NCBI GenBank assembly: GCA_002067315.1
Contig: MVRA01000097.1
Span: 1-33,571, forward strand
Reading direction: 5' to 3'
Length of the DNA stretch: 33,571 bases
Origin: Methanocella sp. PtaU1.Bin125
GTDB lineage: Archaea; Halobacteriota; Methanocellia; Methanocellales; Methanocellaceae
Under the pieces are notes generated by a model. The model searched no databases. It had not been told where the DNA came from and was given only the letters and a program-made list of their open reading frames with translations. Shown in pieces: positions 2,260-18,840 of this stretch. Within the stretch, counting starts at the first letter, position 1; the number at the start of each line of letters is the position of its first letter. The translations under genes and the position numbers were made by a program.

Positions 2260-2538
2260 TCACCGTTTGTCATTTAATGTTCGTTGCAGGCCCGTCCACT
2301 GAAGCCCCCGTGACTGTCCCCTTATCGCGTCCACGGGGTTGAGGCGCGCCGCCCTGTACGCGGGGTATATGCCTGCGGCTAACGAGAATGACACAGCGAT
2401 CAGCAGCCCGATCAGCAGCAGAGCCCGCGAAACGCTGGCGGTCCGGTCTCTGAAGACGCCCGAGGACTGCTCGCCCGGAGGGGAGACGATGTACGGCTTG
2501 TGGAAGGCGTTGATGGCGGTCGCGAAGGCCGGCCCTGG
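2260..2538 (-). pseudogene. Remnant of FtsX/MacB-type ABC permease (C-terminus only)
   Basis: The minus-strand frame between an in-frame TAG at 2539-2541 and a TGA at 2260-2262 encodes the last transmembrane segment and tail of an FtsX-family permease. The phrases FATAINAFHKPYIV, AVSFSLAAGIYPAYRAAR and LNPVDAIRG match the C-termini of the two intact permeases in this window (GAGIYPAVKATR with LNPVDAIRG, and AGIYPAIKAAR with LSPVDAIRG). There is no start codon and roughly the first 330 residues are absent. It begins 38 nt downstream of the stop of the 1247-residue surface protein, which is where a permease sits in the intact modules. I infer a third module that lost its transporter by deletion. 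A 95-codon open frame overlapping this region is in another frame and is a shadow. Confidence 0.85.
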
Positions 2539-2576: not shown

Positions 2577-5500
2577 CTATGGACCGAACTGGACCGTACC
2601 CCCGGCGAGAATTGTGCCGTCGGGCTCGTAGATGATGGCGTACCTGCACTCCTCGCCGAATGACACCACGAATGGCAGGGAAGGTCCGTCCGGGCTCCAG
2701 GACAGGGCTTTGCCACCGGCCAGCTCCAGGCAGTTGTCGGCGTAGAGCATGAGCCAGTCGCCGGGACGGACGGTCCGGCCATCGCTGCCGGGTATTTGCA
2801 GGTATGCCTGCACGGCAGGAGAGGTACAGCGGGAGGCTGGCATGGCGGCCCGGGAGCCGAGGTTGATCGACGAGTCCCCGCACTCAAGCCGTATGATCAG
2901 ATCTTCGAGAGTGACGGGGTCGCTGCCGGACATGTGGAAGAGCACCCCGTTATCGGCCGAAAAGCCATCCGGGTAATCCGGCGCGCCGTTGGCCGGCACC
3001 AGGTCCTCGACGGCCTGTACGACCGGCAGGGCCTCGAATGATACATCGTGCGTGCCAGCCACAGCCCTTTCTACCGGGGCCCCGGACTGGAGCAGCGTAA
3101 AGGCGCCTGCCATCCCGATGAGCACGACGGCCACGAGCAGGAGCATGATGACCCATAGTGGCAGTGACCGGTCGCCGACGATACGTACCTGGCTCCTGAC
3201 AGCAGCGGGCAAGCCCCTCGTGCCGTAGTAGACGCCGGCGAGCGAGGCCCCTGACAGGAGCAACAGAAGGGACAGGATCAGCGGCCAGGAGGCCGGCGAG
3301 ATCCGCGAAGTAGTCTTGTCGGTGTCGCCGCCCGAGATCATTTCTGCGGTCGTATTACCTGCCGGGGCCGGTGAGGGTGTCGCCGTCAACAGAGGCCCTG
3401 CCGGTGTGCCGGAAGTAGAATTATTCTGCGCCGACGTGGTCAGGTTCGTCGCATTCGCGGTCGTGATGCCTGCCGGTGTGTACTCGACGACCAGGAACTG
3501 CTGGGCAGCGGCCATGCACGGGGTCGAGTCCTCGGTGCTCTGGATCCTGGCCACGTTATCCCCGGCCCGCAGGTACGGCCGCACTTCCCGGCTGTCCACG
3601 GCCACCTGGGTGCCCGAGGAGACCCCGTAGTCCCACACGTTCGTACCAAGATGGTGGCCATTGAAGTACAGGTTTCCCTCTCCGTTGCCGGAGGGGACGA
3701 AGGTGATCAGGCGGGCCTGTGATACGTTGGCCACATCGATCTGCAGGCCGGTGAAGGGCACGTATGCGCTCGCGGTCTCCGTGCTCGTCCCGTAGCCGGC
3801 CGGGTCCGCACCCAGCAGGTCAAACTCCTCGTTGAGGAAGATTTGCTTGCGTGTCGCTGCAGCGTCCTCGTAGACCACGGCGAGGGTAAACCCGTAGGGC
3901 GAAATCTTCGCATTCGCATCTTCCCGGGTAAAGAGGGCAGTGTTCGGGGCGCCTTTCCTGTAGAGCGAGGTCACATCGTAGACGAGCAGCCCGTATACGT
4001 GATCGTAGTATGCGCCGAAGTTGCTCGCGTCGCTATACCACTGGCTGCGGGCGACCATCTGGCCGTTGAAGCTGATGCTTACATGATCCGGGGCCTGGTT
4101 CGAGTTGTCCCATGTATATGGCACGTATAGCAGGGCTGCCCGTACTGTCGCGTTCGCGGATAGAGGGAAATCGCCGGCCGGCCAGCTTACCGTGTAGCTG
4201 TTCCAGCCGGAGGCGCCGAAGCTGCCGGAACGGTAGGCGCTATCGCCCGCGGAGTAGAGTAGCCCGCCGTGCAAATCGTAGACTCTGACCGTACCGACGT
4301 CGCTTCCGCCGGAGCTGTAGCGCTTTCCTGCGTAGCCATTATTTACCACGGCCTTCGCTGAGCTCGCTTTCACATTGTTGCTCTCGTTGGTCTCCGCGAC
4401 CAGGTTGTCCGGGTCGATCGTGGCCGTATACGTCACTGCTGCGCTGCCCTGCTGCCGGATGGTCGGATCGAGGACTGATACCGTGGTCATCTCCCCGCCG
4501 GCCAGCGCAGGCAACGCTACCCTCGCCACGAAACCGTCGCCGGACCGCACCTCGACCTCTGTCGGGAGCGAGGACGACGAACCGATGTTGCGGATGTTGT
4601 AGACATATACCCGGTTCGACATCCTGGCGAATGCGACCTGCCCGACCGTGTTCACCGCGCCGGATATGTTGAGGTCGCAGACAGGCGTTTCAGTGACGGT
4701 GATATACCCTGACTTCGTCGTGGAGTTGCTGCCGGCGGCGCCGGCCACCGTCAGCCTGACTGTATAGACCCCTGAGGAATTGTACGTATAGGAGGGATGC
4801 TGATCCGTGCTGTCGATGACCCCGTCACCGTCGAAGTCCCACTGCCAGGCCGTGGCGCCGGTCGACTGATCCGTGAAATGGACTGCCAGCGGTATGGAGC
4901 CAGTCGTCCGGTTCGCGGCAAAGCCGGCGACGGGAGCGGAACTATTGGCGAGTATGATACCTGACACGGAGAGGCTGCCAGGACTGCCAGGGCTCGTCAC
5001 CCGGATATATCCGGGCACAGAGTGAGAGTTCGTGCCACCCGGGCCACTCACAGTCAATGTCACCGGATATATGCCCGGCGTACTGTACGTATAAGAGGGG
5101 CTCGATGCCGTGCTGTCGATGACCCCGTCGCCGTCGAAGTCCCACTGCCAGGCCGTGGCGCCGGTCGAGGCATCGCTGAAGGCGACGGTCAGCGGGGCCG
5201 TTCCCGAGGTCGGGGAGCCGCTGAAGGCAGCCACAGGCGTTGACACACCCGGGATCCTTGCTTTAAGCAAGGCGAGCGGCATCTTGAAGAAGCCCGCAGT
5301 ACCGGTACCCGGGAGATAACGGGCGTAGCCGAGTGTCACGTAGCTGGCGGCTGATATGCTGGAGATCACGTCCCACGACCTGACTCCCGAGTAGGCACCC
5401 TGCACGTCCGGCGTCCTGTCCAGGTTCACATTGGTGAAACCCCCTGCCTTTGTCGAAGCCACAAAATTGTTTTTTGCCGTCGGGAACCCATAATAGCCGT

Positions 5501-6320
5501 TATTGCTCGCCATATAGATCGAGGTGAGTGTGGCAGAAGTCACTCCGGACAGCCCGCTGGTAGCGAACGTGGTAGTGCCCATTGCCACCTCATCAAAATT
5601 ATCCTCCGTATAGTAGGAGCAGACATCGTGGCCCTGGTTCACCCAGTACCTGACCTGATCCGCGTCGCCGTCGTTATAGGCGACTACCAGCGCGACCTCC
5701 TTGATGCGGCCGTCGAAACTAGAGCCGACCGCTGAGGCTGAAGCCGCCACACGGACGTTCCTCGAGGAGATGAGCGAAGCCACGTCGTACCACATGAAAT
5801 AGTCGCTCGTCACCCTGTTACAGTGATCATTCACCAGTTTATACGGCTCCGCGGCGCCGTGGCCGGGGAAAGCTCTGTTGTCATTACCGCCATTGACCAC
5901 ATACACGAAAGGGACGTTCAAGTCCTCAGTCCACGACTGTTCGTAGCCCGCAACGCCGTCCCCATCCCACTGCGTCGTGATCGTACCATGCCGCTGATCC
6001 TGCATATGCCCGTTATACGTAGACACATACAGCCGTGCCCACACAATCCGGCCAGGCACAGCCACCGCATCCGCAGGCAACATGAAATCCTTCGTCACGC
6101 TCGTCGCAAACACCGGAGGCGTAGCATCGAACCAGAGGTCGCCGGACACCGTGCCCGACTGCACCGTGGCGAGAGGCTGCCCGCCTACGTAGCTATCCGC
6201 GAACGCCACGGCAGGAAGAAGCGCAAACGTAAGCAACAGTACAATAATGAAAGCCCGTGTCGATATGTTCGCCTGCTTGCCAATCCAGGCCATCGCCGAG
6301 GATACTACCGTCAAAGGCAT
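2577..6320 (-). CDS. Giant DUF3344-PKD-PKD-CARDB-DUF3344 membrane protein with pilin-like C-terminus
   Basis: This 1247-residue protein has a leader with a hydrophobic segment (about 24-41), DUF3344 copy 1 (about 42-350), two PKD domains (about 363-446 and 465-545, both with WQWDFDGDG), a CARDB-like domain (about 547-650, ending NESNN) and DUF3344 copy 2 (about 664-947). A Thr/Ser/Asn/Pro-rich linker with several N-glycosylation sequons follows (about 948-1005), then two transmembrane helices (about 1009-1032 and 1054-1078) around a basic loop, and an extracellular tail. The tail contains GSDPVTLEDLIIRL and ends in GGTVQFGP, which resembles the beta-sandwich of archaeal type IV pilins and archaellin-like proteins. 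This is a motif-level judgement. Predicted topology is outside, membrane hairpin, outside. It is probably a surface receptor or adhesin and its ligand is unknown. A second ATG at 6293 is possible, but the TATA box at 6352-6360 favours 6320. Confidence 0.9.
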   Translation of the reverse strand: MPLTVVSSAMAWIGKQANISTRAFIIVLLLTFALLPAVAFADSYVGGQPLATVQSGTVSGDLWFDATPPVFATSVTKDFMLPADAVAVPGRIVWARLYVSTYNGHMQDQRHGTITTQWDGDGVAGYEQSWTEDLNVPFVYVVNGGNDNRAFPGHGAAEPYKLVNDHCNRVTSDYFMWYDVASLISSRNVRVAASASAVGSSFDGRIKEVALVVAYNDGDADQVRYWVNQGHDVCSYYTEDNFDEVAMGTTTFATSGLSGVTSATLTSIYMASNNGYYGFPTAKNNFVASTKAGGFTNVNLDRTPDVQGAYSGVRSWDVISSISAASYVTLGYARYLPGTGTAGFFKMPLALLKARIPGVSTPVAAFSGSPTSGTAPLTVAFSDASTGATAWQWDFDGDGVIDSTASSPSYTYSTPGIYPVTLTVSGPGGTNSHSVPGYIRVTSPGSPGSLSVSGIILANSSAPVAGFAANRTTGSIPLAVHFTDQSTGATAWQWDFDGDGVIDSTDQHPSYTYNSSGVYTVRLTVAGAAGSNSTTKSGYITVTETPVCDLNISGAVNTVGQVAFARMSNRVYVYNIRNIGSSSSLPTEVEVRSGDGFVARVALPALAGGEMTTVSVLDPTIRQQGSAAVTYTATIDPDNLVAETNESNNVKASSAKAVVNNGYAGKRYSSGGSDVGTVRVYDLHGGLLYSAGDSAYRSGSFGASGWNSYTVSWPAGDFPLSANATVRAALLYVPYTWDNSNQAPDHVSISFNGQMVARSQWYSDASNFGAYYDHVYGLLVYDVTSLYRKGAPNTALFTREDANAKISPYGFTLAVVYEDAAATRKQIFLNEEFDLLGADPAGYGTSTETASAYVPFTGLQIDVANVSQARLITFVPSGNGEGNLYFNGHHLGTNVWDYGVSSGTQVAVDSREVRPYLRAGDNVARIQSTEDSTPCMAAAQQFLVVEYTPAGITTANATNLTTSAQNNSTSGTPAGPLLTATPSPAPAGNTTAEMISGGDTDKTTSRISPASWPLILSLLLLLSGASLAGVYYGTRGLPAAVRSQVRIVGDRSLPLWVIMLLLVAVVLIGMAGAFTLLQSGAPVERAVAGTHDVSFEALPVVQAVEDLVPANGAPDYPDGFSADNGVLFHMSGSDPVTLEDLIIRLECGDSSINLGSRAAMPASRCTSPAVQAYLQIPGSDGRTVRPGDWLMLYADNCLELAGGKALSWSPDGPSLPFVVSFGEECRYAIIYEPDGTILAGGTVQFGP
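4807..5168 (-). repeat. Near-identical 59-bp PKD repeat pair
   Basis: Bases 4807-4865 and 5110-5168 differ at one position and lie 303 bp (101 codons) apart. Both encode the ATAWQWDFDGDGVIDST core of a PKD domain. The flanking parts of the two PKD domains differ much more. This suggests a recent partial duplication or gene conversion inside the gene. Confidence 0.9.
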
Positions 6321-6360
6321 CCAATCGCCAGTTACAATATTGTAAAGTTGACTATATAAT
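6321..6360 (-). promoter_or_regulatory. Promoter with 14-bp palindrome before the giant surface gene
   Basis: On the minus strand ATTATATAG (complement of 6352-6360) is a good archaeal TATA box and predicts a transcript start near 6330, giving a leader of about 10 nt. Between it and the ATG lies TTACAATATTGTAA (6332-6345), a perfect 14-bp palindrome that overlaps the expected transcript start. It is a plausible repressor operator. Confidence 0.55.
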
Positions 6361-6481: not shown

Positions 6482-7702
6482 TCATATCAATCCCCGGATG
6501 GCATCCACCGGGCTCAGTCGCGCCGCCTTGATCGCCGGATAGATTCCTGCGAGTAACGAGAAGAACACGGCGATTCCCAGCCCGGCAACGAGCATCTCAG
6601 GGGTCACGTGCGCAATCTCGCTTCCGAACAGGTCCGAGAAGTCCGCGCCGAGCTGCGCGATCACGAAGGGCCTCCCGGCCAGGTTGACGAACAGCGAGAA
6701 CAGGACGCCTATCGCGTCCCCCGCGATCCCGCCCAGCACGCCGATCAGGAGACATTCCAGCAGGACCAGGCGGACGACATCGCCCTCCGACGCCCCGACG
6801 GCCATAGTGATGCCGATCTCCCGTGTCCGCTCGTAGACAGACGTGATCATCGTCGTCATGATCATCAGGCACCCGACGATGAGCGCGAAAGCCGCGAACA
6901 GGGTGAAGATCATGACCAGCATATCCATGAACCGGTTCACCGCCTCGATCTGCTCGAAGGCGCCCGTGGCGGTCAGCCCCCGTGCCCGGACCTCTTCAAC
7001 GAATGCAAACACGTTGCCCGGGTCGTCGATGCGGACGAAGATGCTGGTATACGGGGTGTCGCTCCCGCGGATCAGCCGCTCCGTGTCCAGGTCGATCAGG
7101 ACGAACTCGTCGAACTCGTTGTCGCTCTGGCCCATCAGCCCGGCGGCGGTCAGGTTGACCGACGTGTCGTACGGGATGCCGGTCTCGTTATAGTCCCGGA
7201 ACTGCGCCAGGAATGTGTCGCCGACCCGGATCCCGTCCGACCGCTGCAGCCGCTCCCGGACGTTGTAGCCGAAGACGGCGGCCGTCGAGTTCGTCTCCAG
7301 GCCCTCGCCCCGGAGTAATACCGGTTTGATCACGGCGTCCAGGTCTCCCTGGCGGACGGCCACGATGGACAGGTATGTCTGGCGCCTGGTGGCCGCGACG
7401 TCCCGTATGGCCGGCATGATGGCGACCACATGCGGCATCCCCCGGATCGTCTCCGCCCGGGCGTCGGTGAGGAGCTGCGTCGTCCCGTTCTGCGACGAAG
7501 GCGCCACTTCGACCAGGGACAGGTCGGACTGCTCCCGGATGGTCTCGACCGCCTGGTCCCGGATGCCCTGGCCGATGGCCAGGATGCCGATGACCGCGGC
7601 CACCCCCACCGCGATTCCGAGAACGGTGAGCGTGACCCTCAGGCGCTTGGCCGTGAGCTGTCGTGCCGCCAGGCGCAGGAAGTCGAAAGGCTTTCCGATC
7701 AT
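6482..7702 (-). CDS. FtsX/MacB-type ABC transporter permease, module A
   Basis: This 406-residue protein has the MacB/LolC layout. There is a short cytoplasmic N-terminus, TM1 (about 24-48, VLGIAVGVAAVIGILAIGQG), a large extracytoplasmic domain (about 50-265), and three C-terminal helices with the FtsX signature ERTREIGITMAVGAS and the end SPVDAIRG. Family members couple a cytoplasmic ATPase to movement of the outer domain and do not always move a substrate through a channel. It aligns end to end with the module B permease at 11709-12929. Its ATG overlaps the stop of the upstream DUF3344 gene (ATGA at 7699-7702), so the two are translationally coupled. No ATPase gene accompanies it in this module. 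It may use the module B ATPase or one encoded elsewhere. Confidence 0.93.
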   Translation of the reverse strand: MIGKPFDFLRLAARQLTAKRLRVTLTVLGIAVGVAAVIGILAIGQGIRDQAVETIREQSDLSLVEVAPSSQNGTTQLLTDARAETIRGMPHVVAIMPAIRDVAATRRQTYLSIVAVRQGDLDAVIKPVLLRGEGLETNSTAAVFGYNVRERLQRSDGIRVGDTFLAQFRDYNETGIPYDTSVNLTAAGLMGQSDNEFDEFVLIDLDTERLIRGSDTPYTSIFVRIDDPGNVFAFVEEVRARGLTATGAFEQIEAVNRFMDMLVMIFTLFAAFALIVGCLMIMTTMITSVYERTREIGITMAVGASEGDVVRLVLLECLLIGVLGGIAGDAIGVLFSLFVNLAGRPFVIAQLGADFSDLFGSEIAHVTPEMLVAGLGIAVFFSLLAGIYPAIKAARLSPVDAIRGLI

Positions 7703-8697
7703 CCGGTCCCGCCCCCGTCTTTCAACGTTATCGAGAGAACCGCATTGGTAAGCTGGAAGTAATCGCCCATGTCCCGCACGTCGACGTGATTGTCACGCGA
7801 ACGGATGTAAGGCGTAATGTCCCGGCTGTCCAGGCCGACCTGTGAGGCGTAGTCCCAGTAGAAGAAGTTGGTCCACGTCTTGCCCCGGAACTTCGGGAAC
7901 AATATAGACAGCAGCGACCGCATCAGCTCGGGCACGTCGCTGTCCGGGATGTAGTTCACCAGCAGCCGGTTCATCGCGGGCAGGTTATAGCGCGAGTAGC
8001 CGCCCGATGGTGCGACCAGGTCAAGGTGCGCCTCTGACACCAGGTCCCGCGGGACGTCGCCGTCGAAGGCCAGCCGGCTCGTGGCCATTTCCGCAGATAT
8101 CCCGTAGGCGTTATAGACCATGTCCGCCCCCTCCTTCACCCACAGCATCCGCCGGGGCTCGCCGGGATCCTCGTAGACGACGAGCAGCCCCATGCCGTAC
8201 AGCGAGACAAGACTGCCTGGCGGGCCGGCCTGGGTGACAGTGAAGGTAAAATTGTTTGACCCGGGCCCTATGCCGGGCACCTCGTAGGTGTCCATCCCGG
8301 TGAAGAAGTCATAGGAGCTTACGAAGCCTTTACTGTCCACGTAACGGTCCTTCAGTTCCAATGTCTGTTCCCGGTCGCCGGTCATGTTGACGATCAACGT
8401 CGGGTAGATGGCGGTCTGGTTCAGCATGCTCCAGGACCAGTACACGTACAGGCGCTGGTACCGGACGGTCGCGTTTTCCGGCACGGTCACGTTGACCCAC
8501 GTCACGGTGACGTTGCCCCGGACGACCGAGCCGTTGTACGTGCTGTTGCCGGTGTCGAAGGCGAACGAGCCGCGGAAGTCGTCGTAGAAGACGGTGGATA
8601 GGGGCTTGTCGCCGGCGTACGAGGCCGAGGCGATGCCCGGGACCGCCAGGAGGTACGCGGCGAAGACAGCCACGGCCAGGAGCCTACCTGAAATCAT
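7699..8697 (-). CDS. Secreted DUF3344 protein, module A
   Basis: This 332-residue protein starts at MISGRLLAV. It has a signal peptide ending near GIASASYAG and one DUF3344 domain over the rest, with the phrases YVYWSW, YGMGLLVVYED, PRRMLWVKEGADM and DYFQLTNAVLSIT. There is no C-terminal membrane helix, so it should be released outside the membrane or held by partners. I chose ATG 8697 over the upstream in-frame ATG at 8754 because the signal peptide begins there and because module B starts at the same place (14-nt overlap with the preceding stop). Several N-x-S/T sequons suggest glycosylation. Its position directly before the permease suggests it binds the permease's outer domain. This is inference, since DUF3344 has no established function. 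Confidence 0.9.
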   Translation of the reverse strand: MISGRLLAVAVFAAYLLAVPGIASASYAGDKPLSTVFYDDFRGSFAFDTGNSTYNGSVVRGNVTVTWVNVTVPENATVRYQRLYVYWSWSMLNQTAIYPTLIVNMTGDREQTLELKDRYVDSKGFVSSYDFFTGMDTYEVPGIGPGSNNFTFTVTQAGPPGSLVSLYGMGLLVVYEDPGEPRRMLWVKEGADMVYNAYGISAEMATSRLAFDGDVPRDLVSEAHLDLVAPSGGYSRYNLPAMNRLLVNYIPDSDVPELMRSLLSILFPKFRGKTWTNFFYWDYASQVGLDSRDITPYIRSRDNHVDVRDMGDYFQLTNAVLSITLKDGGGTG

Positions 8698-10486
8698 AGT
8701 CCGCCTCTGCCATGTTGTTGGACTCGCTGGCCTCCCGGACCGTCCCGCCTGCATCGGCGACGGCCCGGACGTGGTGCTTTCCGGGCGCGACGTACAGCGG
8801 AATTTCCAGCCGGGTCACGTTACCGGCCTCCATGCTATCGATCCCCTGCACGACGGTCCGCTGGCCGTCGACGAAGACCGCCAGGTCGAAGGCGGGTGCG
8901 TCGCTGCCACCCTCGTTCGTGATAGTGACCGGCAGCAGGCTGGCCCCGGTATCCGCCCGGGCCGTCGCCATGGAAGCGGCCGGCAGAGAAGCCGGCGCAA
9001 GCGCGAGGGCTGTGGCAAGCAGGACTGCCAGGGCATGGCGTTTCCCCGGCGGCCGCCGGACGACGAGGCCAGCGGCGATCGCCACGCCGGCGACGGCCGC
9101 TAGAAGCGCGTACGGCGTGCCGGACTGCGGGGAAGGCGACGACGCGGGGCCCACAGGTGCGCCCATCGTCAGCACCAGGTCGGGGAGCCCGCCGACGGTC
9201 ACGGTTTTCGTCGCCATGTCGTTGGCGGCATCGATGTCGCCCCCGAGGTGGGCTGCGACCTCCACGACGTGAGAGCCCGCGGTCGCCGCCCACGGCGCCG
9301 ATACCCGCTGCACGCCGCTGGCTTCGACCGCCACCTGCTGCGTCGCGATGGTCCGGCCGTCGACGCCGAACGTGACCTGTGCCGGCGACTTCACGGCCGG
9401 CCCGAAGTTCAGGAGCGTCGCCGAGATCGTGCCGTTCGTCCCTACGTAGGCATCGCTTATGGTGACGTCCCTGACGGCCAGGTCGTGCCCGGCGGCGGCA
9501 CCGCCTGAGCTTTCGACGGCGAGAATGGCCAGGACGGGGTGGATGTAGTCCTCGCCCTCTGGCCGGTCGCCGGTCGTCAGGATGTCTCCGTCGCCATCGA
9601 GGTCCTTCCCCCTCAGGAAGGTCAGGACGTTGTCGCTTCCGGCGAGGGAGGTCACGTCGAATGTCTCCATATCGACGTATCGAGAATCGATCCCCGTGGC
9701 ACCTGCGGCATTGAAGGAACGCTCATCGCCGATGTCGTCTGCAGCCGAGCCGCCCAGGGCACGGCCGTTCAAGAGCAGGTAGTCGGGCTGCCCCCGCGCC
9801 GTCGCGATCTCGACTGTCGTGAGGCTGGCGCGACCCCCGGCCGGCAGCGGGCCGAAGCTCAAGGACGTCTCGTCCAGGACAGTCGGATTCGCCCCCTCCG
9901 TCCACCCGTAGCCGTGCAGGTTGACGTTGCCTTCGGCGACACGATAAGTAGTCAGGGGCCCGCCAGGCTCCTTCACGGCCGCGACTACGACGATCCCGTA
10001 GACGCGGCCGTCGATCCTGCTCTCCGGGTCACGCCAGCTGGTGTTGATCGAGACCGTGTTCTCCCCCTTTCTCAGCAGGCTAGTCGCATCGTACGCCAGC
10101 CAGTAGACGCCGTAGCCGGCGACGTAGACGTCCTCCTGCGTGTCCTCCCTGCCGAGAAGCGGGGTCCGGTCGGGCGTCTCGTCGTTCACCTGCAGCTGCG
10201 CCCAGCCCTGGTAGTCCGGCGCGCTGCCCCAGACGCCGACGTACGCCCTGGCCCAGGCAACGTCGCCGGGCAGCGTGAAATGGCAGGTCAACGGAGGATT
10301 TGCCAGCCCGAGCGTCTCGAACGTAAGCACCCGCCCCTGCACCTGGCCCTGTGCAGCCAGTGCCAGGGGGAAACCATCGAAGTTGTATTTCGCCTCTGCC
10401 GCCGGTGCCACAGCCGCCACGGCCAGCAGGCCGGCGAGGGCAATGCACAGTGAAAGCCGGGCCTGTCCGCGGGTGAAAGCGATCAT
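8684..10486 (-). CDS. DUF3344-CARDB membrane-hairpin protein, module A
   Basis: This 600-residue first gene of module A has a signal peptide (about 1-32, ending AAEA), a DUF3344 region (about 33-330, including an acidic DLDGDGD stretch) and a CARDB-like domain (about 336-435). Two transmembrane helices (about 457-475 and 483-500) flank the basic loop RRPPGKRH. A second CARDB-like domain (about 502-598) follows and ends in SESNN and DYDFR. Both beta-rich halves should lie outside, with only the short basic loop in the cytoplasm. It is a clear paralogue of the protein at 14612-16486. Its stop lies 14 nt inside the next gene. A TATA box at 10510-10518 suggests an almost leaderless transcript. 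The function is unknown; a surface receptor or scaffold for the downstream permease is likely. Confidence 0.9.
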   Translation of the reverse strand: MIAFTRGQARLSLCIALAGLLAVAAVAPAAEAKYNFDGFPLALAAQGQVQGRVLTFETLGLANPPLTCHFTLPGDVAWARAYVGVWGSAPDYQGWAQLQVNDETPDRTPLLGREDTQEDVYVAGYGVYWLAYDATSLLRKGENTVSINTSWRDPESRIDGRVYGIVVVAAVKEPGGPLTTYRVAEGNVNLHGYGWTEGANPTVLDETSLSFGPLPAGGRASLTTVEIATARGQPDYLLLNGRALGGSAADDIGDERSFNAAGATGIDSRYVDMETFDVTSLAGSDNVLTFLRGKDLDGDGDILTTGDRPEGEDYIHPVLAILAVESSGGAAAGHDLAVRDVTISDAYVGTNGTISATLLNFGPAVKSPAQVTFGVDGRTIATQQVAVEASGVQRVSAPWAATAGSHVVEVAAHLGGDIDAANDMATKTVTVGGLPDLVLTMGAPVGPASSPSPQSGTPYALLAAVAGVAIAAGLVVRRPPGKRHALAVLLATALALAPASLPAASMATARADTGASLLPVTITNEGGSDAPAFDLAVFVDGQRTVVQGIDSMEAGNVTRLEIPLYVAPGKHHVRAVADAGGTVREASESNNMAEADYDFR

Positions 10487-10520
10487 CTATGTTACGATCG
10501 TTTACGTTGTATTTAATAGT
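10487..10520 (-). promoter_or_regulatory. Promoter of module A
   Basis: TATTAAATA (complement of 10510-10518) is centred about 28 nt before the ATG at 10486, so the transcript should begin 2-4 nt before the gene. The leader contains the 8-bp palindrome ACGATCGT. The whole 34-nt segment aligns without gaps to the module B promoter (23 of 34 positions identical). Confidence 0.6.
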
Positions 10521-10576
10521 TGTTACTTAATAAATAATCGTCTGCCGTTCGTGTCTTTTATTGTTAAAATCGTAAC
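10491..10576. repeat. Inverted repeat GTTACGAT / ATCGTAAC between divergent genes
   Basis: GTTACGAT at 10491-10498 and its exact reverse complement ATCGTAAC at 10569-10576 flank the module A promoter and lie just before the btuF-like TATA box. A regulator binding both arms could control the two divergent genes together. Eight-base arms in AT-rich DNA can arise by chance. Confidence 0.4.
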
Positions 10577-10587
10577 ACGACAATCGC

Positions 10588-10600
10588 TATTTATTTTTAT
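10588..10600 (+). promoter_or_regulatory. Promoter of the btuF-like gene
   Basis: The AT-only stretch TATTTATTTTTAT lies about 30 nt before the ATG at 10623. This is the expected spacing for a TATA box with a very short leader. The FecCD operon promoter at 16853-16863 has a similar core. Confidence 0.5.
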
Positions 10601-10622
10601 TAGTAATACCTATCCCCTACTG

Positions 10623-11687
10623 ATGAGAAACGAGAAGTTCCTGTGCCTGGCGCTCGCCATCCTCGCGATCACGGCCGCCATGGCCGGCTGTCTCCAGGCT
10701 TCGCCCGCGACGCCGGGCCCTTCTGCGGCCCCGGGCGCCGGCATCACCTTTGCCGACGGTAACAGCAACGTGATCACCATCCCGAAGACGGCCGACCGGA
10801 TCATCTCGACCAACTCCGACTGCACCGAGATGCTGATCGCCATCGGGGCCGCCGACAAGATCGTCGGCGTATCGGAGACCGTCATGGACACGCCGGCCCT
10901 GATGGCGCTGCTCCCGCCGGACGTGAAGAGCATCGGGAGCTGGTCGTCGCCCAGCCTGGAGACGATTCTGTCGCTGAGGCCCGACGTGGTGATCTGCTAC
11001 ACCTACTCCACTTTCCCGAGCAACCTGGACATGCTCGTCGCCTACAACATCACGATCGTCGCCCTCGACTGCTACAAGCTGGGCGCCCTCGAGTCTGACG
11101 CCCGGACGCTCGGCGTGATCACCGGGAACAAGCAGCAGGCAGACGAATATGCGAGCTTCTTCGACAGGTATCTCAAGCTTGTCCAGGGGCGGACCAGGGA
11201 CCTGGACCTGGCGAAGATGCCCACGGTCTACTGGGAGGGGTATTCGGATTACTCGACCGTCAGCGGGACCAGCGGAGGCAACATCATGATCGGCACGGCC
11301 GGCGGCAACAACGTGGCGGGCAACTATTCCACGTCGTACCCCCAGGTCAGCGCCGAATGGGTGGTTTACCAGGACCCGGCTTACATCTTCAAGTCCATCG
11401 CGGCCGCGAACGTCACCTCGATCGACGATTTCAGGAGACTGCAGGCGGACGTGGCCGGCCGCCCCGGCTTCAGGCTCGTCGAGGCGGTGAAGTCTGACAA
11501 TGTGTACGTCATGTCCGGCGCGTTCGCCTCTGGCGCACGCAGCATGATAGGGCTCCTGTACGTGGCAAAAATACTGCACCCGGACCTGTTCGCAGACGTC
11601 GATCCGCAGCAGGTGCTGGCCGAGTACGCGCAAAAGTTCCTGCCCGGGGCGGACCGGGTCCTCTACATTTACCCGGACATCGGCTGA
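10623..11687 (+). CDS. BtuF/FecB-type substrate-binding lipoprotein
   Basis: This 354-residue protein is a cluster A solute-binding protein of the type used by cobalamin, haem and siderophore importers. Its signal peptide ends in a lipobox (AAMAGC, Cys23), so it should be lipid-anchored outside the membrane. The fold is indicated by RIISTNSDCTEMLIAIGA, VVGVSE-like IVGVSETV, and LETILSLRPDVVI. I chose the ATG at 10623 because it starts the signal peptide and sits just after a TATA box. Upstream in-frame starts would add sequence with no signal peptide. It is a lone plus-strand gene between two minus-strand modules. Its likely partners, the FecCD permease and ATPase, lie 5 kb away at 16918-18840. 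Haem, cobalamin, cobalt chelates or iron chelates are all possible substrates, and I cannot tell which. Confidence 0.88.
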   Translation: MRNEKFLCLALAILAITAAMAGCLQASPATPGPSAAPGAGITFADGNSNVITIPKTADRIISTNSDCTEMLIAIGAADKIVGVSETVMDTPALMALLPPDVKSIGSWSSPSLETILSLRPDVVICYTYSTFPSNLDMLVAYNITIVALDCYKLGALESDARTLGVITGNKQQADEYASFFDRYLKLVQGRTRDLDLAKMPTVYWEGYSDYSTVSGTSGGNIMIGTAGGNNVAGNYSTSYPQVSAEWVVYQDPAYIFKSIAAANVTSIDDFRRLQADVAGRPGFRLVEAVKSDNVYVMSGAFASGARSMIGLLYVAKILHPDLFADVDPQQVLAEYAQKFLPGADRVLYIYPDIG

Positions 11688-11708
11688 GGCCCGGCCTTCC
11701 CCTGCCGG

Positions 11709-12929
11709 TCACGTCCCCCGGATAGCGTCAACCGGGTTGAGCCGCGTAGCCTTGACGGCCGGGTAGATCCCCGCGCCCAGCGAAAACACGACCGCGATGG
11801 CCAGTCCGATGAGCATCAGTCCGGGGGATACGACGGCTATCTGCTCCCCGAAGATGCCGGCAAACTGGTCGCCCAGGCTGGCCACGACGTATGGCTTCCC
11901 GAACGTGTTGACCACCGTCGCGAAGCCCAGCCCGAACAGGTCACCCAGAATCCCGCCCATGACGCCGATCAGCAGGCACTCGTACATGACCAGCCGCACC
12001 ACGTCGCCTTCGGAAGCCCCGATAGCCATGGTGATGCCGATCTCCCGGGTCCGCTCGAAGACCGAGGTAATCATCGTGGTCATGATCATCAAGCCGCCCA
12101 CCAGGAGCGCAAATACCGCGAACAGCGTGAAGATCATGACGACCATGTCCATGAAGTTATTCACCGCCTTGATCTGCTCGAATGCGCCCGTCGCCGTGAG
12201 GCCCAGCGACTTTACCTGTTCCGCCACCCCGAACACGTTGTCTGCCGAGTCGACCCGGACGAACACGCTGCTGTAGCCGGCCTCGTCGTCCCGGAAGGTC
12301 ATGGCCGTCGCCAGGTCCATGATCAGCAGGCGGTCGAACTGGTCGTTCCTCACCGTCAGCGAGCCGGTGGCATTGAGCCTGTGGCCGGTGTCTACCGGGT
12401 AGCCGGACTCGTTGTAGTCTCGCACGACGATGTCGAAGCCCTCCCCGATGCGGATGCCCTCCACCCGCTGGAGCGTGTCGCGCAGGTCATGGCCGAAGAC
12501 GACTTCGTTCGTGCCGGGCGACATGCCCTCGCCGTGAAGATACTGCGGCTTGAGCACCTGCTCGAAGTCGGGCCCGTTCATCGCCACCACGTCGAGGTAG
12601 GTCTGCTTTTTCGTGGCATAGTTATCCCGGATGGCGGGAGCGGCGGCCAGGACGTGGTCCATGGACCTGATGTCGTCGACCCGGGCGTCGGTGATCAGCT
12701 GCGTGATGCCATCCTGCGTGTCGGGGTGCACCTCGACAAGCGACAGGTCCGACTGGGCCTCGATGGCCTGGATGGCCTGCTCCCGGATGCCATCGCCGAT
12801 CGCCACGATACCGATCACGGCGGCGACGCCGATGGCGATCCCCAGCACCGTCAGGAGCACGCGCAGCCGTTTCGTGAAGAGCTGCCGGGCCGAGAGCCCC
12901 AGGTAGTCGACGTACCGCCCTACGATCAC
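11709..12929 (-). CDS. FtsX/MacB-type ABC transporter permease, module B
   Basis: This 406-residue permease has the same architecture as the module A protein: TM1 (about 24-48), an extracytoplasmic domain (about 50-265) and three C-terminal helices. It carries ERTREIGITMAIGAS and ends LNPVDAIRGT. The start codon is GTG at 12929, overlapping the stop of the ATPase gene by 4 nt (GTGA), so the transporter subunits are translationally coupled. It forms a half-transporter that should dimerise and pair with the ATPase at 12926-13636. Its 3' end faces the btuF-like gene with only 21 nt between the two stops. The extracytoplasmic part could act on the co-encoded DUF3344 proteins (inference). MacB, LolCE and FtsX themselves have different cargo or none. 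Confidence 0.94.
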   Translation of the reverse strand: MIVGRYVDYLGLSARQLFTKRLRVLLTVLGIAIGVAAVIGIVAIGDGIREQAIQAIEAQSDLSLVEVHPDTQDGITQLITDARVDDIRSMDHVLAAAPAIRDNYATKKQTYLDVVAMNGPDFEQVLKPQYLHGEGMSPGTNEVVFGHDLRDTLQRVEGIRIGEGFDIVVRDYNESGYPVDTGHRLNATGSLTVRNDQFDRLLIMDLATAMTFRDDEAGYSSVFVRVDSADNVFGVAEQVKSLGLTATGAFEQIKAVNNFMDMVVMIFTLFAVFALLVGGLMIMTTMITSVFERTREIGITMAIGASEGDVVRLVMYECLLIGVMGGILGDLFGLGFATVVNTFGKPYVVASLGDQFAGIFGEQIAVVSPGLMLIGLAIAVVFSLGAGIYPAVKATRLNPVDAIRGT

Positions 12930-13636
12930 TTCATCACCCTCGCGTCCGCGCAGGCGGCCGTCTCCAGGCCGGTGCTCAGCACCCGGCCGTCCCGCAGCTC
13001 GATAGTCCGGTCGCAGTAGGCGGCGAGCTCCTTCTCGTGGGTCACTACCATGAAGGTCACGTCCCGCGCCCTGTTGACCTGGCGCATGAGGGCGTAGATC
13101 TCCCCGCTCGTCTTCGAGTCCAGGTTGCCCGTGGGCTCGTCGGCCAGCACCAGGGACGGATCGCCGACCAGCGCCCTGGCGATCGCTACCCGCTGCTGCT
13201 CGCCGCCGCTGAGCTGCTGAGGGAAATGCTTCGCCCGGTCGCCGAGGCCGACCAGCTCCAGCATGCCCATGGCCCGCTTTTCCCGGACGGCCTTAGAATG
13301 ATAGTTGAACAACAACGGATAGGCGACGTTTTCCAGCGCGCTGAGCGATACGATCAGGTTGTACTGCTGGAACACGAAGCCGACGACGTTCCTGCGCAGC
13401 GCGATGAGCGCCTTCCGGTCCCGGTAGTCGACCACCGTCCTGCCGATGGATACCGTGCCCGATGTAGGGCTGTCCAGCCCGCCGAGGATACTGAGCAGCG
13501 TGCTCTTGCCACTGCCGCTTCTGCCGATGAGCGCGACGAATTCCCCGCGCCTCACCTCGAAGGAAACGTCCTGCAGCGCTTTGACACCGTTTCTATATTC
13601 TTTGCTTAACCCGGTCACCTTGATGCTTTCTGTCAT
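12926..13636 (-). CDS. LolD/MacB-type ABC transporter ATPase
   Basis: This 236-residue ATPase subunit has Walker A GRSGSGKST (38-46), Q-loop FQQYN (89-93), signature LSGGEQQR (142-149), Walker B LVLADE (162-167) followed by PTGNLD, and H-loop His200. The TGNLD phrase and length are typical of the LolD/MacB/FtsE group that pairs with FtsX-type permeases. I chose the ATG at 13636 (MTESIKV) because it lies 5 nt after the stop of the DUF3344 gene and matches the family start. An open frame extending further upstream is a shadow of that gene. It supplies ATP hydrolysis for the module B permease and, possibly, for the module A permease, which has no ATPase gene of its own nearby. Confidence 0.95.
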   Translation of the reverse strand: MTESIKVTGLSKEYRNGVKALQDVSFEVRRGEFVALIGRSGSGKSTLLSILGGLDSPTSGTVSIGRTVVDYRDRKALIALRRNVVGFVFQQYNLIVSLSALENVAYPLLFNYHSKAVREKRAMGMLELVGLGDRAKHFPQQLSGGEQQRVAIARALVGDPSLVLADEPTGNLDSKTSGEIYALMRQVNRARDVTFMVVTHEKELAAYCDRTIELRDGRVLSTGLETAACADARVMK

Positions 13637-13641
13637 ATGTA

Positions 13642-14625
13642 TCACGACTTCATCGTTATCGAGAGCACCGCGTTCGACAGCTGGAAGTAGTCGCCCGAGT
13701 CCCTCACCTCCGCCCGGTTGCCTGTCGACCGCAGGAACGGTGTGATGTCCCGCCGGTCGACGCCGACCTGGGAATTCTGGTCGAAGTCGAACGCATCCGT
13801 CCACGCCTTTCCCCTGTAGTTGGGGAACAGTATCGACAGGATCGACCGGAGCAGCGCGGGCATCTGCTCGTCGGGTATCTGGTTGACCAGCAGCGAGTTC
13901 CTGCCCTGCACGTTGTTCGTCGAGTAGCCGCCGGACGGGGCGACCAGGTACAGCTCGGTCCGGGCCACGTCCCGTACGGGCACATCGCCCGGGAACTCGA
14001 TCGCGGCCGTGGCCATCGCGGGCGAGATCCCGTAGCTGCTGTACAGCAGGTCGCAGCCCTCGCTGACCCATAGCATACGCCGTGGCTCCGACGGGCTCTC
14101 GTACACCAGGAGCAGCCCCATGCCGTAGACCGCCACAGTGCTGTCCTCCGGGCCGTCCTGGTCGAGGCGGACCGTGAAGCTGCGGGCACCGGGCCCCAGG
14201 CCGGTGACATTATATGCATCCGTGCCCACGTAATAGTCGTAGGCGCTAGCGAAGCCCTTGTTATCCATGAACCGCTGCGCCGGGCCCAGTCCGATGCCCG
14301 CCGAACCAGGCGGCGACAGCGTCAGGTTCGGGTACATCCCCTTGCCGTTCTGGTTGCTCCACGTCCAGTAGACGTACAGCCGGCTGACCCGCAGGACGGC
14401 GTCCTGCGGCAGCGGGACGTCGAAGGTCACGTTGAGGCTGCTGCCCGGGCTCATCGAGCCGGTGTACACGCTGTCGCCCATTGAAAATAAGAAATCGCCA
14501 TTGATCTCTCCCCGATATATAGAGGCCAGTGGCCGGTCTCCCGAGTATGTAGCGCCTGCCGGCGCCGCCAGCGCCGTCAGGCCGGCGATGAGCGCGAAGA
14601 GAATAGCGAGCCTAGGTGAATTCAT
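13642..14625 (-). CDS. Secreted DUF3344 protein, module B
   Basis: This 327-residue paralogue of the protein at 7699-8697 has a signal peptide (MNSPRLAILFALIAG, ending near APAGATYSG) and a single DUF3344 domain with YVYWTWSNQ, YGMGLLLVYE, PRRMLWVSEGCDLL and DYFQLSNAVLSIT. There is no C-terminal anchor. I chose ATG 14625 because it opens the signal peptide and gives the same 14-nt overlap with the preceding stop codon that is seen in module A. Two earlier in-frame ATGs would add residues before the signal sequence. It lies 5 nt upstream of the ATPase gene, so it is tightly part of the transporter operon. It is probably an extracytoplasmic partner of the permease or of the hairpin protein; its ligand is unknown. 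Confidence 0.9.
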   Translation of the reverse strand: MNSPRLAILFALIAGLTALAAPAGATYSGDRPLASIYRGEINGDFLFSMGDSVYTGSMSPGSSLNVTFDVPLPQDAVLRVSRLYVYWTWSNQNGKGMYPNLTLSPPGSAGIGLGPAQRFMDNKGFASAYDYYVGTDAYNVTGLGPGARSFTVRLDQDGPEDSTVAVYGMGLLLVYESPSEPRRMLWVSEGCDLLYSSYGISPAMATAAIEFPGDVPVRDVARTELYLVAPSGGYSTNNVQGRNSLLVNQIPDEQMPALLRSILSILFPNYRGKAWTDAFDFDQNSQVGVDRRDITPFLRSTGNRAEVRDSGDYFQLSNAVLSITMKS

Positions 14626-16486
14626 AGGTTGACTCCGCGACATTGTCGGCCCGGTTCGCATCCCGGATCCTGGCCGCCTCGTCGACGACCGCCTTCATCC
14701 GGTGCGATCCGGGCGAGGCATAGACTGGCAGGTCGATTTTCGTCTCGCTGCCGGCCCGGACGCCGTCGCCGAAAGACTTGATCGTCAGCTTCTCGCCGTC
14801 CAGGTAGACGGTGAGGTTGAAGCCGGGGGCGTCGCTCCCGCCGACATTCTTGATCGTCACTGGCAGGAGGAAGAGCGCGGTGCTTTCTTTGGCCCGGACG
14901 ACCGGCGTGATGGAAGACGCTATGACGAGCGCCATGGCCAGCACCGCCCCGAGCAGGACGATGGTCGCAAGGGCCTTCCGCCGTCCCGGCGGGCGCCGCG
15001 CGATCAGCCACGCGGCAAGGCCGACGGACAGCGCCGTTATGGCTGCCAGGAGCGGGCTCCCCGTGGTCTCCGACGTCGTGACGCCCGGCCTGTACGGCTG
15101 CCCCAGCGACAACACGAGATCGGGCAGCGATCCGACCGTGATCGTTGCCGAAGCCGCGTCGTTCGAGGTGTCGAAGTCGCCGGCTACGCTCGCCCGGACG
15201 GTGACTTCGTGGCTGCCCGCCGTCGCCTTCCAGGTCCCGGACACCTGCTGTACGCCGCTTCGGTCCACCGCGACCTGCCGGGTGTCTATCGCCTGGCCGT
15301 CGACGCTGAAAATGATACTGGCGTCCCCGGACGCGGCCGCCCCCAGGTTGCGCAGCGTGAAGACGATGCTCGCGTCCTCCCCGGCATAGGCGTTGTCGAC
15401 GCGCAGACCCTCTATCGCCAGGTCGGGCGCTGTGGACGATGCGCCGGCCTTCTGGACCTTGAGCATGGCGAACACCGGATGCACGTAGTCTTCGCCTTCG
15501 GGGAGGTCGTTCACCTTGTCGATGCTCCCGTCTCCGTTCAGGTCCCTGCCCCGCTGGAACGTCACCGTGTTGGAAGAGGCCAGCAGGCCTTTGACATCGA
15601 AGACCTCGGCGTCGACGTATGCTGCCGGAGTGCCGCTCTGTCCATAGAAGATACCCTGGTCATACGAGACCGCGTTCGCGAGGTCCAGCGCCCCGGGGAG
15701 GTAATTGCCGCCTGTCGGCGACCCGACGATGTCCTTCCCGTTGAACAATAGAAAATCCGGCTCCAGCTTCGTCCCGCAGAGCTCCACGATCGTGAGATTC
15801 GCCGCGGTCGCCTCCGACGTATCGACGCCGCTGAAGACGACCGACGTCTGGTCCAGGATCGTCGGGTTGTCGCCCGCCCATCCCGCGCTGTGGAGGTTCG
15901 CGTTCCCGTCGGCAATCCAGTAGCTGGTCAGGGGTGCGTGCGAATCCCGGACTGCTGCGACGACCCAGATCATGTAGACACGGCCGTCCAGCTTGTTGCC
16001 AGGCTCCGCATAGCTGGTGTTCATAGTGATTGAGTTTGCCCCCTTCTTGAGCATGCTCGTCCCCTCGTAGGTGATCCAGTATACCCCATAGCCACTACAA
16101 TAGACGTTGTCGTTCCTGTCATCCTTGCCATAGAGCATCGTCTTCTCGAGGGCATGCCCGTTCACGGAGGCCTGGCCCCAGCCGGTATACTTATTTGTCC
16201 CGCCCCAGACCCCTACGTAAATCTTCGCCCATTCCGGGTCTGCGGGCAGGCTGAAGTTGCATGTCACCGGCGGGTTCCTGAGGCCGTAGGTGCCGAACGT
16301 CAGCACATCCCCCTGCATCTGGCCCTGGGCCACGACGCTGAATGGCATCCCGTCGAAGCTATACTCTGCGACCGCCTCCGGGACAGCGAGGATGGCAAGG
16401 ACAACGCAAAAAGCGGCGACCAGAGCAGCCACGGCTGTAACGCACCTTGCGCTCAATCTGCCTGTATAGTATTTGCGAACAACCAC
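14612..16486 (-). CDS. DUF3344-CARDB membrane-hairpin protein, module B
   Basis: This 624-residue first gene of module B starts at GTG 16486 and has a signal sequence ending near PEAVAEYSF. A DUF3344 region follows (about 42-365), then a CARDB-like domain (about 370-465). Two transmembrane helices (about 476-494 and 504-526) flank the loop RRPPGRRK, and a second CARDB-like domain runs to the end (STYEFT). Architecture and order match the module A protein, including the RRPPG loop, so the cytoplasmic turn is under constraint. The upstream TATA box (16510-16518) predicts a nearly leaderless GTG start. Likely role: a membrane-anchored surface receptor or scaffold that works with the downstream DUF3344 protein and the ABC pair. 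No known enzyme motif is visible. Confidence 0.9.
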   Translation of the reverse strand: MVVRKYYTGRLSARCVTAVAALVAAFCVVLAILAVPEAVAEYSFDGMPFSVVAQGQMQGDVLTFGTYGLRNPPVTCNFSLPADPEWAKIYVGVWGGTNKYTGWGQASVNGHALEKTMLYGKDDRNDNVYCSGYGVYWITYEGTSMLKKGANSITMNTSYAEPGNKLDGRVYMIWVVAAVRDSHAPLTSYWIADGNANLHSAGWAGDNPTILDQTSVVFSGVDTSEATAANLTIVELCGTKLEPDFLLFNGKDIVGSPTGGNYLPGALDLANAVSYDQGIFYGQSGTPAAYVDAEVFDVKGLLASSNTVTFQRGRDLNGDGSIDKVNDLPEGEDYVHPVFAMLKVQKAGASSTAPDLAIEGLRVDNAYAGEDASIVFTLRNLGAAASGDASIIFSVDGQAIDTRQVAVDRSGVQQVSGTWKATAGSHEVTVRASVAGDFDTSNDAASATITVGSLPDLVLSLGQPYRPGVTTSETTGSPLLAAITALSVGLAAWLIARRPPGRRKALATIVLLGAVLAMALVIASSITPVVRAKESTALFLLPVTIKNVGGSDAPGFNLTVYLDGEKLTIKSFGDGVRAGSETKIDLPVYASPGSHRMKAVVDEAARIRDANRADNVAESTYEFT

Positions 16487-16917: not shown

Positions 16918-18033
16918 ATGCGCACAGAATTCATGACGAATGCCCCACCCGCGGGTGATGCCGAAGACCCGTTCCACGCCTATTATTCGGGCGGCATCAG
17001 GAAGATCGGGCTGATCGGCGTCCTGGCCGCGCTGTTGCTGATGGCGGTAGTCTATGCCGGCAGTGTCGGCGCAGCCGGCCTCTCGCTGACGGACGTGTTC
17101 CTGGCCGTAGCCCACGCGGCCCTGCCTTCGATCTTCGGGGCGCCCGGGAACGAGATGGCGGGGGCCATCGTCGTCGACATCCGCATGCCGCGCATCCTGC
17201 TGGCCGGCTTCGCCGGGGCCAGCCTCGCGGTGGCCGGCGCCGTGATGCAGGGGGTGCTGCGCAACCCGCTGGTCAGCCCCTTCACGCTCGGCCTGTCGTC
17301 GGCGGCGTCCTTCGGCGCGGCGCTGGCCATCGTCGCCGGGCCCGGCATCATGGGCGCCCTGTTCGTCGGGAACCAGAACGCGCTCATCGTGGCTATGGCG
17401 TTTGCGTTCGGGATCGCAAGCATGCTCCTGATCTACGCGGTCACGCGGATGAGCGACGACCAGTCCACGATCATCCTGGCCGGCGTGGTCCTCGGCTATA
17501 TGTTCTCGGCGGGCGTGCTGGTCCTGAAGTACCTGACGAACAATGAGAAGCTAAGGGATATCACGCTATGGCTCATGGGAGGCATGTGGGGGGCGAACTG
17601 GGGTAGCGCGGTGCTCGTGGCGATCGTCACCGTACTGGTGCTACTGCTGCTGACCCTGAAGGCCTGGGATCTGAACGCGCTGTCCGCCGGCGACGAGGTG
17701 GCCAGGAACCTGGGGGTGGATATCGGCCGCACCAGGATGTACTGCCTGCTCCTCGCCACGCTCATGGCATCGAGCTGCATGGCGTTCACGGGCGTCATCG
17801 GGTTCGTAGGCCTCATGTCTCCTCATATATGCCGTATAATCATCGGCAACGATCACAGGTACCTGATCCCGTGTTCCGCCCTCATGGGCGCGCTGATCCT
17901 GCTGCTCTCCGACACCTTCGCCCGGACGATCATGATACCGCAGGACCTGCCGGTGGGCATCGTCATGTACGTGATCGGGGGCGCCTTTTTCCTGTTCCTG
18001 ATCCGGAGGGGCAAGAGGAGCACGCTATACTGA
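16918..18033 (+). CDS. FecCD/BtuC-type ABC importer permease
   Basis: This 371-residue polytopic membrane protein of the FecCD family carries the hallmark stretches RMPRILLAGFAGASLAVAG, MQGVLRNPLVSP, SAGDEVARNLGVD and GFVGLMSPHICR, with GNDHRYLIP near the end. Together they identify a type II importer permease for cobalamin, haem or iron chelates. An N-terminal extension of about 30 residues precedes the first helix. The start is fixed by GAGGT 7-8 nt upstream. It is followed after 12 nt by its ATPase gene and then by cobN. The btuF-like lipoprotein at 10623-11687 is the natural substrate-binding partner although module B separates them. The permease should form a homodimer. Substrate cannot be read from the sequence. 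Confidence 0.95.
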   Translation: MRTEFMTNAPPAGDAEDPFHAYYSGGIRKIGLIGVLAALLLMAVVYAGSVGAAGLSLTDVFLAVAHAALPSIFGAPGNEMAGAIVVDIRMPRILLAGFAGASLAVAGAVMQGVLRNPLVSPFTLGLSSAASFGAALAIVAGPGIMGALFVGNQNALIVAMAFAFGIASMLLIYAVTRMSDDQSTIILAGVVLGYMFSAGVLVLKYLTNNEKLRDITLWLMGGMWGANWGSAVLVAIVTVLVLLLLTLKAWDLNALSAGDEVARNLGVDIGRTRMYCLLLATLMASSCMAFTGVIGFVGLMSPHICRIIIGNDHRYLIPCSALMGALILLLSDTFARTIMIPQDLPVGIVMYVIGGAFFLFLIRRGKRSTLY

Positions 18034-18045
18034 GGAGGATGCATC

Positions 18046-18840
18046 GTGGAAATGGAAATGGAAGACGTCTGCGTGGACTACGACCGGCACAGGGCTGTCG
18101 ACAGGGTTTCGTTCGCCGTCGGGCCCGGCGAGATCGTAGCCCTCGTGGGACCGAACGGCTCGGGCAAGAGCACACTGATCAAGGCCATAGCGGGCATCGT
18201 CCGCCCCTCCTCGGGCCGCATCAGCCTGGACGGCCGCGACGTGCGGGACATGCGCCTGACGGAGCTGGCCCGGCTGATCGGCTATGTCCCGCAGAGCGTC
18301 CCGATGACCTACCACGCGACCGTCGTCGACGCCGTGCTGCTGGGGAGAAAGCCGTATATCAGGTGGGGCGTTTCCCGGGGGGACATCGCGATCGTGAGGA
18401 GGGCCATGGCAGCGATGGGCATCGAAAGCCTGTCGGGAAAGCTGATGGGCCAGCTCAGCGGGGGCGAGCGGCAGAAAGTGATCATCGCGCGGGCGCTGGC
18501 ACAGGAGCCGGCGCTGTTTTTGTTCGACGAGCCCACCAACAACCTGGACCTGAAGCACCAGGTCGAGGTGCTGGAGATGGCGCGGAGGCTGGCTGACGAA
18601 AAGGGAATTCCGGCGCTGATGGCCCTCCATGACCTGAACCTCGCATTCACGTACTCCGATCGCGTGGTCATGCTCGCGAAGGGGCGCGTCCGCGCCAGCG
18701 GCGCCCCGAGCGACGTCCTGACGGCCTGCAACATCCGGGAGATATATGGCGTTGACGTGACTGTGCACGACTGGGGGCAGGGCCGGTTCATCGTGCCGGC
18801 CCGGGCGCCGGCAATCGCGGCAGGCCGGGGAGGGCCGTGA
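18046..18840 (+). CDS. BtuD/FecE-type ABC importer ATPase
   Basis: This 264-residue ATPase has Walker A GPNGSGKST (35-43), signature LSGGE (137-141), Walker B ALFLFDE (156-162) followed by PTNNLD, and H-loop His195. The sequence pattern (VPQSVPMTYHATVVDAVLLG) is typical of the FecE/BtuD/HmuV group and not of the LolD group seen in module B. I chose GTG 18046 because GGAGG at 18034-18038 lies 7 nt before it. An ATG two codons later is the alternative. It powers the FecCD permease encoded 12 nt upstream. The cobN ATG comes 1 nt after its stop, indicating one operon and coupled translation. Confidence 0.95.
   Translation: MEMEMEDVCVDYDRHRAVDRVSFAVGPGEIVALVGPNGSGKSTLIKAIAGIVRPSSGRISLDGRDVRDMRLTELARLIGYVPQSVPMTYHATVVDAVLLGRKPYIRWGVSRGDIAIVRRAMAAMGIESLSGKLMGQLSGGERQKVIIARALAQEPALFLFDEPTNNLDLKHQVEVLEMARRLADEKGIPALMALHDLNLAFTYSDRVVMLAKGRVRASGAPSDVLTACNIREIYGVDVTVHDWGQGRFIVPARAPAIAAGRGGP

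Follow-up and report, generated by a model that had tools for sequence, protein, structure and literature searches.

Type IV pilins are usually recognised only at the N-termini of proteins, and the locus described here raises the question of how a complete pilin comes to lie at the C-terminus of a large surface receptor and what it might do there. The window (the whole stretch of 33,571 nucleotides analysed, from Methanocella sp. PtaU1.Bin125) contains on its minus strand a gene at 2577..6320 with an ATG start and a single open frame of 1247 codons. As judged from the open reading frame and Pfam, the 1247-residue product consists of a signal peptide, a DUF3344 domain, two PKD domains, a CARDB domain, a second DUF3344 domain, a stalk, two transmembrane segments separated by a loop (TM1 and TM2) and a pilin-type domain. 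The hydrophobic segment of the signal peptide (residues 23-41; 6198..6254, minus strand as for all features of this gene) was located by hydropathy and the N-terminal DUF3344 domain (5259..6194) by its match positions, while Pfam delimits PKD domain 1 (residues 366-434; 5019..5225), PKD domain 2 (residues 462-542; 4695..4937), CARDB (residues 549-652; 4365..4676) and, together with DUF3344 match positions, the second DUF3344 domain (3483..4334). PF11824 (DUF3344) passes the Pfam cut-off with two domains (E = 4e-117). Hydropathy places TM1 at residues 1012-1030 (3231..3287), where it is kept in the other fusions and is expected to run from outside to inside, and hydropathy with alignment places TM2 at residues 1053-1071 (3108..3164). 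The basic loop between them, YYGTRGLPAAVRSQVRIVGDRS (3165..3230), is expected to be cytoplasmic. The pilin-type β-sandwich (approximately residues 1092-1247; 2580..3047) is defined by homology, an AlphaFold model and a fold search; GSDPVTLEDLIIRL begins at residue 1132 and GGTVQ at residue 1240. A preliminary description, made from the letters alone, had proposed a membrane hairpin followed by a pilin-like module in the span 2577-3300, which takes in both TMs and the C-terminal domain.

The proposal of a C-terminal pilin-like domain is borne out by direct protein matches. When the last 198 residues were used as the sole query against 100 related genomes, the best match showed 34% identity across residues 5-194 (E = 4e-33) and two further strong matches showed 30% (6e-24) and 31% (7e-13), while the remaining matches all had E > 0.01. 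All three are stand-alone genes of ~200 codons whose products start with ...AVSPVVGVMLMLV..., the mark of euryarchaeal prepilins, and the four stand-alone relatives tested score PF07790 (Pilin_N; Archaeal Type IV pilin, N-terminal) at ~1e-23, so that the homology is to archaeal type IV prepilins from end to end. The alignment reveals common blocks including PDYPxGFxAxNG(L/V)LF and PGxxxMLYADNC. Within the DRSLPLW... segment homology begins at residues 5-8, immediately ahead of TM2, hence TM2 is the pilin's own helix; two transmembrane segments are present as had been described, but the second half of the hairpin already belongs to the pilin module. The helix thus lies far from the N-terminus, behind the signal peptide, an ectodomain of ~1000 residues and TM1. 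Comparison with profiles of pilin families, suggested as a check, gave a divided answer: the last 198 residues have no Pfam match (the PF07790 cut-off is not reached) and no NCBIfam match, and the segment has therefore diverged from the curated pilin models, whereas the stand-alone relatives that it matches are PF07790 pilins. To reject a pilin origin from the empty Pfam and NCBIfam result alone would be wrong, given the direct matches to pilins. A single-sequence search of the PDB with the pilin segment gave chance matches only. By this homology, an archaeal type IV pilin has been captured as the last ~198 residues of the protein.

Structure prediction, likewise suggested beforehand, gave a confident β-sandwich. 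AlphaFold2, run on the C-terminal domain with 13 sequences, returned a helix followed by a β-sandwich (mean pLDDT 84.4, pTM 0.74). When this model was compared to the PDB with Foldseek the top two matches were archaellin chains (9eq7), with several more archaella behind them and the Haloferax type IV pilus 8fj5 at rank 23. The scores are modest (best E = 3e-3, TM ~0.4), with no match under E = 0.001. As a control, a stand-alone Methanolinea pilin was modelled from the same rows; it matched the same archaellins and 8fj5 at the top of its list and scored somewhat better against them. FlaF/FlaG are among the fold matches of the control, but are absent from the top 50 of the fusion model. The fold evidence for a pilin origin is supportive rather than decisive, and the claim is carried by the sequence comparisons.

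The fusion is not confined to this genome. When 394 genomes of the phylum were searched with a profile, many stand-alone relatives and a single further fusion came to light, and 232 genomes of the order that includes Methanolinea yielded another four fusions. A contig scan with the fusion sequence gave no match, whereas one based on the alignment succeeded. The fusion of Methanolinea sp. QR_Bin.22 (L069/L120) is 1576 aa long, shares the layout of the window protein but has five PKD domains, and is ~50% identical to that protein in the receptor parts and 31% identical over the C-terminal stretch. In a third family, four genomes (L114-L117) encode receptor, TM, loop, TM and pilin in this same order, followed by one extra C-terminal segment, although their contigs stop inside or near the gene. 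This extra segment (FTVPEDLL...RSTFWYKADGETI...) belongs to no Pfam family. The TM hairpin and basic loop are present in each of the five further fusions, and the stretch from the TMs to the end contains 44 columns invariant across the six fusions and three families (e.g. PDYP-x-GF-x-A-x-NG and WLM-x-YAD-x-CL). In a maximum-likelihood tree of 35 rows the six fused domains form one clade (support 99/98), which points to a single fusion event, so that the joining of pilin and DUF3344 receptor appears to have occurred once; the pilin branches are long and the branching order inside the clade is therefore unsure. Neither a fusion nor a stand-alone relative turned up, at the thresholds used, in the three remaining genomes of the family to which the host belongs. 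The view that such a fusion is unusual has held, as it is real, rare and conserved in five further genomes, and we found no paper in the open-access literature on a C-terminal pilin fusion like this one. Its retention in three archaeal families suggests that the pilin sandwich is re-usable as an anchored module.

The surrounding genes place the fusion in an uptake locus. Upstream of it on the minus strand (window 6482-16486) a gene set comprising a DUF3344-CARDB protein, a DUF3344 protein and a MacB-type permease is duplicated, with the copies 46%, 50% and 60% identical, respectively. The copy that the fusion gene follows consists of a 600-aa DUF3344-CARDB protein (8684..10486), a single-domain DUF3344 protein (7699..8754) and a MacB/FtsX-type ABC permease (6482..7702); the other consists of a DUF3344-CARDB protein (14612..16486), a single-domain DUF3344 protein (13642..14661), an ABC ATPase for the MacB-type permease (12926..14071) and the permease (11709..12929), all assigned by Pfam. 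The ATPase is kept in only this one of the two copies. Between the copies on the plus strand lies a BtuF-like substrate-binding protein (Peripla_BP_2 by profile match; 10275..11687, start codon uncertain), and beyond them, also on the plus strand, follow a FecCD/BtuC-type permease (16918..18033; Pfam), an ABC ATPase in the BtuD-type position (18046..18840) and a CobN chelatase subunit (18842..22645; Pfam and NCBIfam). The window also has a DrrA-like ATPase with an ABC-2 permease. Neither a NikR gene nor archaellum genes occur among the annotated genes of the window, while the genome has three NikR_C matches. The 338-aa ORF at 10617-11633 (minus strand), which has no Pfam family and is antisense to the BtuF-like gene, is probably no gene, and a weak PF07790 signal at 8858-9028 (E = 0.26), falling in the CARDB region of the 600-aa DUF3344-CARDB protein, was judged to be chance.

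A similar neighbourhood is found around the relatives. The Methanolinea locus runs fusion, DUF3344-CARDB, DUF3344, ATPase and permease, and both this fusion and that of L114 are flanked by FecCD and BtuF-like genes, with the start of a CobN-like gene following in both. In Methanomicrobiales the stand-alone relatives occupy the second position in a pair of pilin genes, and the nearest FecCD gene lies within 6 kb of them in 10 of 12 genomes, compared to 0.25 expected (P ~2e-16). As FecCD genes lie near both fused and stand-alone forms, the pilin is in either form accompanied by uptake genes of the same kind. Some stand-alone loci add PilB/PilC-type genes (T2SSE, T2SSF), CobN or NikR. Tandem type IV pilin pairs beside FecCD/BtuF genes were seen at L036, L074, L075, L077, L121, L131 and similar loci, and possibly reflect a Methanomicrobiales pilus connected with the uptake of metals or corrinoids. 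That this pilin family is so strongly linked to FecCD/BtuF genes, with CobN or NikR at some loci, suggests pilus-assisted acquisition of nickel, cobalt or corrinoids in methanogens, an idea that would give DUF3344 a concrete functional setting beyond that of a surface protein. A hydrogenotrophic methanogen makes CobN1, NikR1 and possible metal-chelating proteins in abundance only when nickel is limiting (PMC12350162), and on Methanoperedens plasmids DUF3344 proteins come after NikR and CbiMNQO (PMC9674854). Importers of the FecCD/BtuFCD type, whose substrates are vitamin B12, heme or siderophores, are difficult to distinguish by sequence (PMC2667541).

Within the host genome the receptor also occurs with another end. 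A 1230-aa paralogue (L154:5816-9508) has the same signal, DUF3344, PKD, CARDB and DUF3344 parts, with its receptor parts 62% and 56% identical to those of the fusion protein; it carries an FG-GAP insert (repeats) and an Ig-like terminal β-domain and is without the membrane hairpin. The same receptor with a different end implies that the pilin end is a choice of module and can be swapped. None of the remaining DUF3344 proteins encoded in the genome has the pilin module. One of them, at window 1-1872, seems to start the same Ig-like end as the paralogue before the contig stops.

What is observed (homology, conservation of the fusion, single origin, fold, loss of the pilin core and gene neighbourhood) could be accounted for by the following mechanism, for which we infer the topology, the lack of cleavage, the docking and the substrate. 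The ancestral pilin would have belonged to the second-of-pair family beside FecCD/BtuF uptake genes in Methanomicrobiales and have been joined once to the end of a DUF3344/PKD/CARDB receptor. Sec export would place the receptor part outside, TM1 would return the chain inward to leave the short basic loop in the cytoplasm, and TM2, the former pilin helix, would exit again to show the pilin β-sandwich outside next to the membrane. The pilin-type end would then most likely anchor the receptor and offer a docking surface near the membrane, where a sister pilin, the DUF3344 proteins encoded elsewhere in the operon or the MacB-type permease would be likely to bind. The resulting surface machine may capture a tetrapyrrole or a nickel or cobalt chelate on behalf of the BtuFCD-like importer and CobN encoded alongside. 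Membrane anchoring is what the sequence itself predicts, whereas docking and substrate are further extrapolations. For the whole explanation, in which a captured pilin anchors and docks a DUF3344 receptor in tetrapyrrole, nickel or cobalt acquisition, we see about an even chance. The preliminary description suggested that the module might dock the protein to pili or to other copies of itself; a role in membrane anchoring and partner docking in an ABC/CobN uptake locus would explain the context at least as well.

One question for this mechanism is whether the pilin end is released. The stand-alone relatives have, ahead of the helix and extending into it, a nearly unvaried sequence A-V-S-P-(V/I)-(V/I)-G, whereas the alignment shows this core to be missing in all six fusions, TM2 of the window protein included, suggesting that the domain is probably uncleaved and non-polymerising and remains a membrane-anchored module. 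However, prepilin peptidases require Gly, Ala or Ser at -1 and a charged residue at -2 (PMC4371748), a rule to which the window fusion loosely conforms within its basic loop (RS↓LPLWV, then 23 uncharged residues), as do three of the other five fusions with RA↓YAGVG (-2 Arg, -1 Ala); these loose motifs leave processing possible. Cleavage at the loop by prepilin peptidase would make the protein a polyprotein, from which a mature pilin-like subunit joins a pilus while TM1 holds the receptor, the two being produced from one gene at a fixed ratio. The loop sits on the side of the membrane where prepilin peptidases act, and the host genome encodes both an Arc_PepC_II archaeal prepilin peptidase and genuine pilins, although no stand-alone member of the fused domain's own pilin family was found in it. 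Against this, among the six fusions compared the motif is missing in those of Methanolinea and G431, four of the six carry the extra segment behind the pilin domain, and the loss of the core is shared by all, so that we consider a cleavable polyprotein very unlikely. A wider reading, in which a receptor-pilin precursor (cut internally, or with an uncleaved end that caps or nucleates a pilus) couples the DUF3344 receptor and ABC machinery to a type IV pilus for metal-tetrapyrrole (nickel or cobalt) uptake, is doubtful.

An uncleaved pilin end could also serve a purely structural purpose. FlaF and FlaG show that an archaellin-like sandwich can act as an anchored part of the envelope. By analogy the sandwich might serve only to hold on to the S-layer or sheath, thereby securing the receptor with its ABC complex in the envelope, with no pilin or uptake partner, which would suit an anchored, probably uncleaved domain on a large receptor with stalk domains. 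The two proteins, archaellin-like domains on a membrane helix, do match the stand-alone pilin model, yet their absence from the top 50 for the fusion model and the lack of archaellum genes among the annotated window genes make this stator or anchor role rather unlikely. The paralogue, which keeps the receptor part with another β-domain and no hairpin, might instead suggest that the pilin segment is a decaying remnant of which only the TM hairpin is useful while the β-domain does nothing specific, but decay would not preserve the invariant columns of the six fusions or a confidently modelled fold, and such a passive anchor is improbable. An erroneous joining of two adjacent genes in sequencing or assembly might be suspected in a draft genome of 219 contigs. 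It was rejected as having a negligible probability: the frame is open throughout, no AVSPVVG block is left at the junction, and independent assemblies (Methanolinea and four genomes) have the same kind of junction with the TM hairpin.

The fusion protein and its locus have parallels in several known systems. With the archaeal type IV pilins (PF07790) of the Methanomicrobiales tandem pairs the fusion domain shares homology of helix and sandwich (28-36% identity), fold matches and the same kind of FecCD/BtuF neighbourhood, but it is C-terminal in a 1247-aa receptor behind a second TM, lacks the AVSP(V/I)(V/I)G core and a Pfam match, and has no conserved cleavage site. Like other DUF3344 (PF11824) surface proteins the fusion has two DUF3344 domains, PKD and CARDB stalks, a signal peptide and DUF3344 neighbours, differing from those of the host genome in its pilin module, where the nearest paralogue ends Ig-like. 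The resemblance to the archaellum stator proteins FlaF/FlaG, small separate proteins without a DUF3344 receptor, is one of fold (a sandwich on a membrane helix), and the fusion locus is without archaellum genes among the annotated window genes. The operon resembles MacB/FtsX (type VII) ABC systems in its MacB_PCD and FtsX permeases and ATPase, whereas its partners are DUF3344 surface proteins rather than MacA/TolC or EnvC. In the Sulfolobus bindosome, substrate-binding proteins that are not pilin-derived carry N-terminal, cleaved pilin signal peptides (PMC4371748). It likewise joins pilin machinery to substrate capture at the surface, though in the opposite arrangement: the fusion has a whole pilin at its C-terminus behind TM1, a hydrophobic signal segment at residues 23-41 with no pilin N-terminal match, and an ectodomain that is not of a substrate-binding family.

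Several smaller features of these loci were also observed. At L077:2003-5604 two ORFs that by eye are NifH- and NifD-like lie between FecCD and CobN, adjoining the pilin pair. A perfect 14-bp palindrome, TTACAATATTGTAA, lies at 6332-6345, 12 bp ahead of the start codon of the fusion gene; it does not recur in the other loci compared and we do not claim it as a regulator site. Immediately downstream of the fusion gene, window 2317-2535 (minus strand) encodes what is left of the C-terminus of a MacB-type permease, 48% identical over 73 aa to the one at 6482-7702; a 95-aa ORF at 2270-2557 overlaps this remnant in a different frame.
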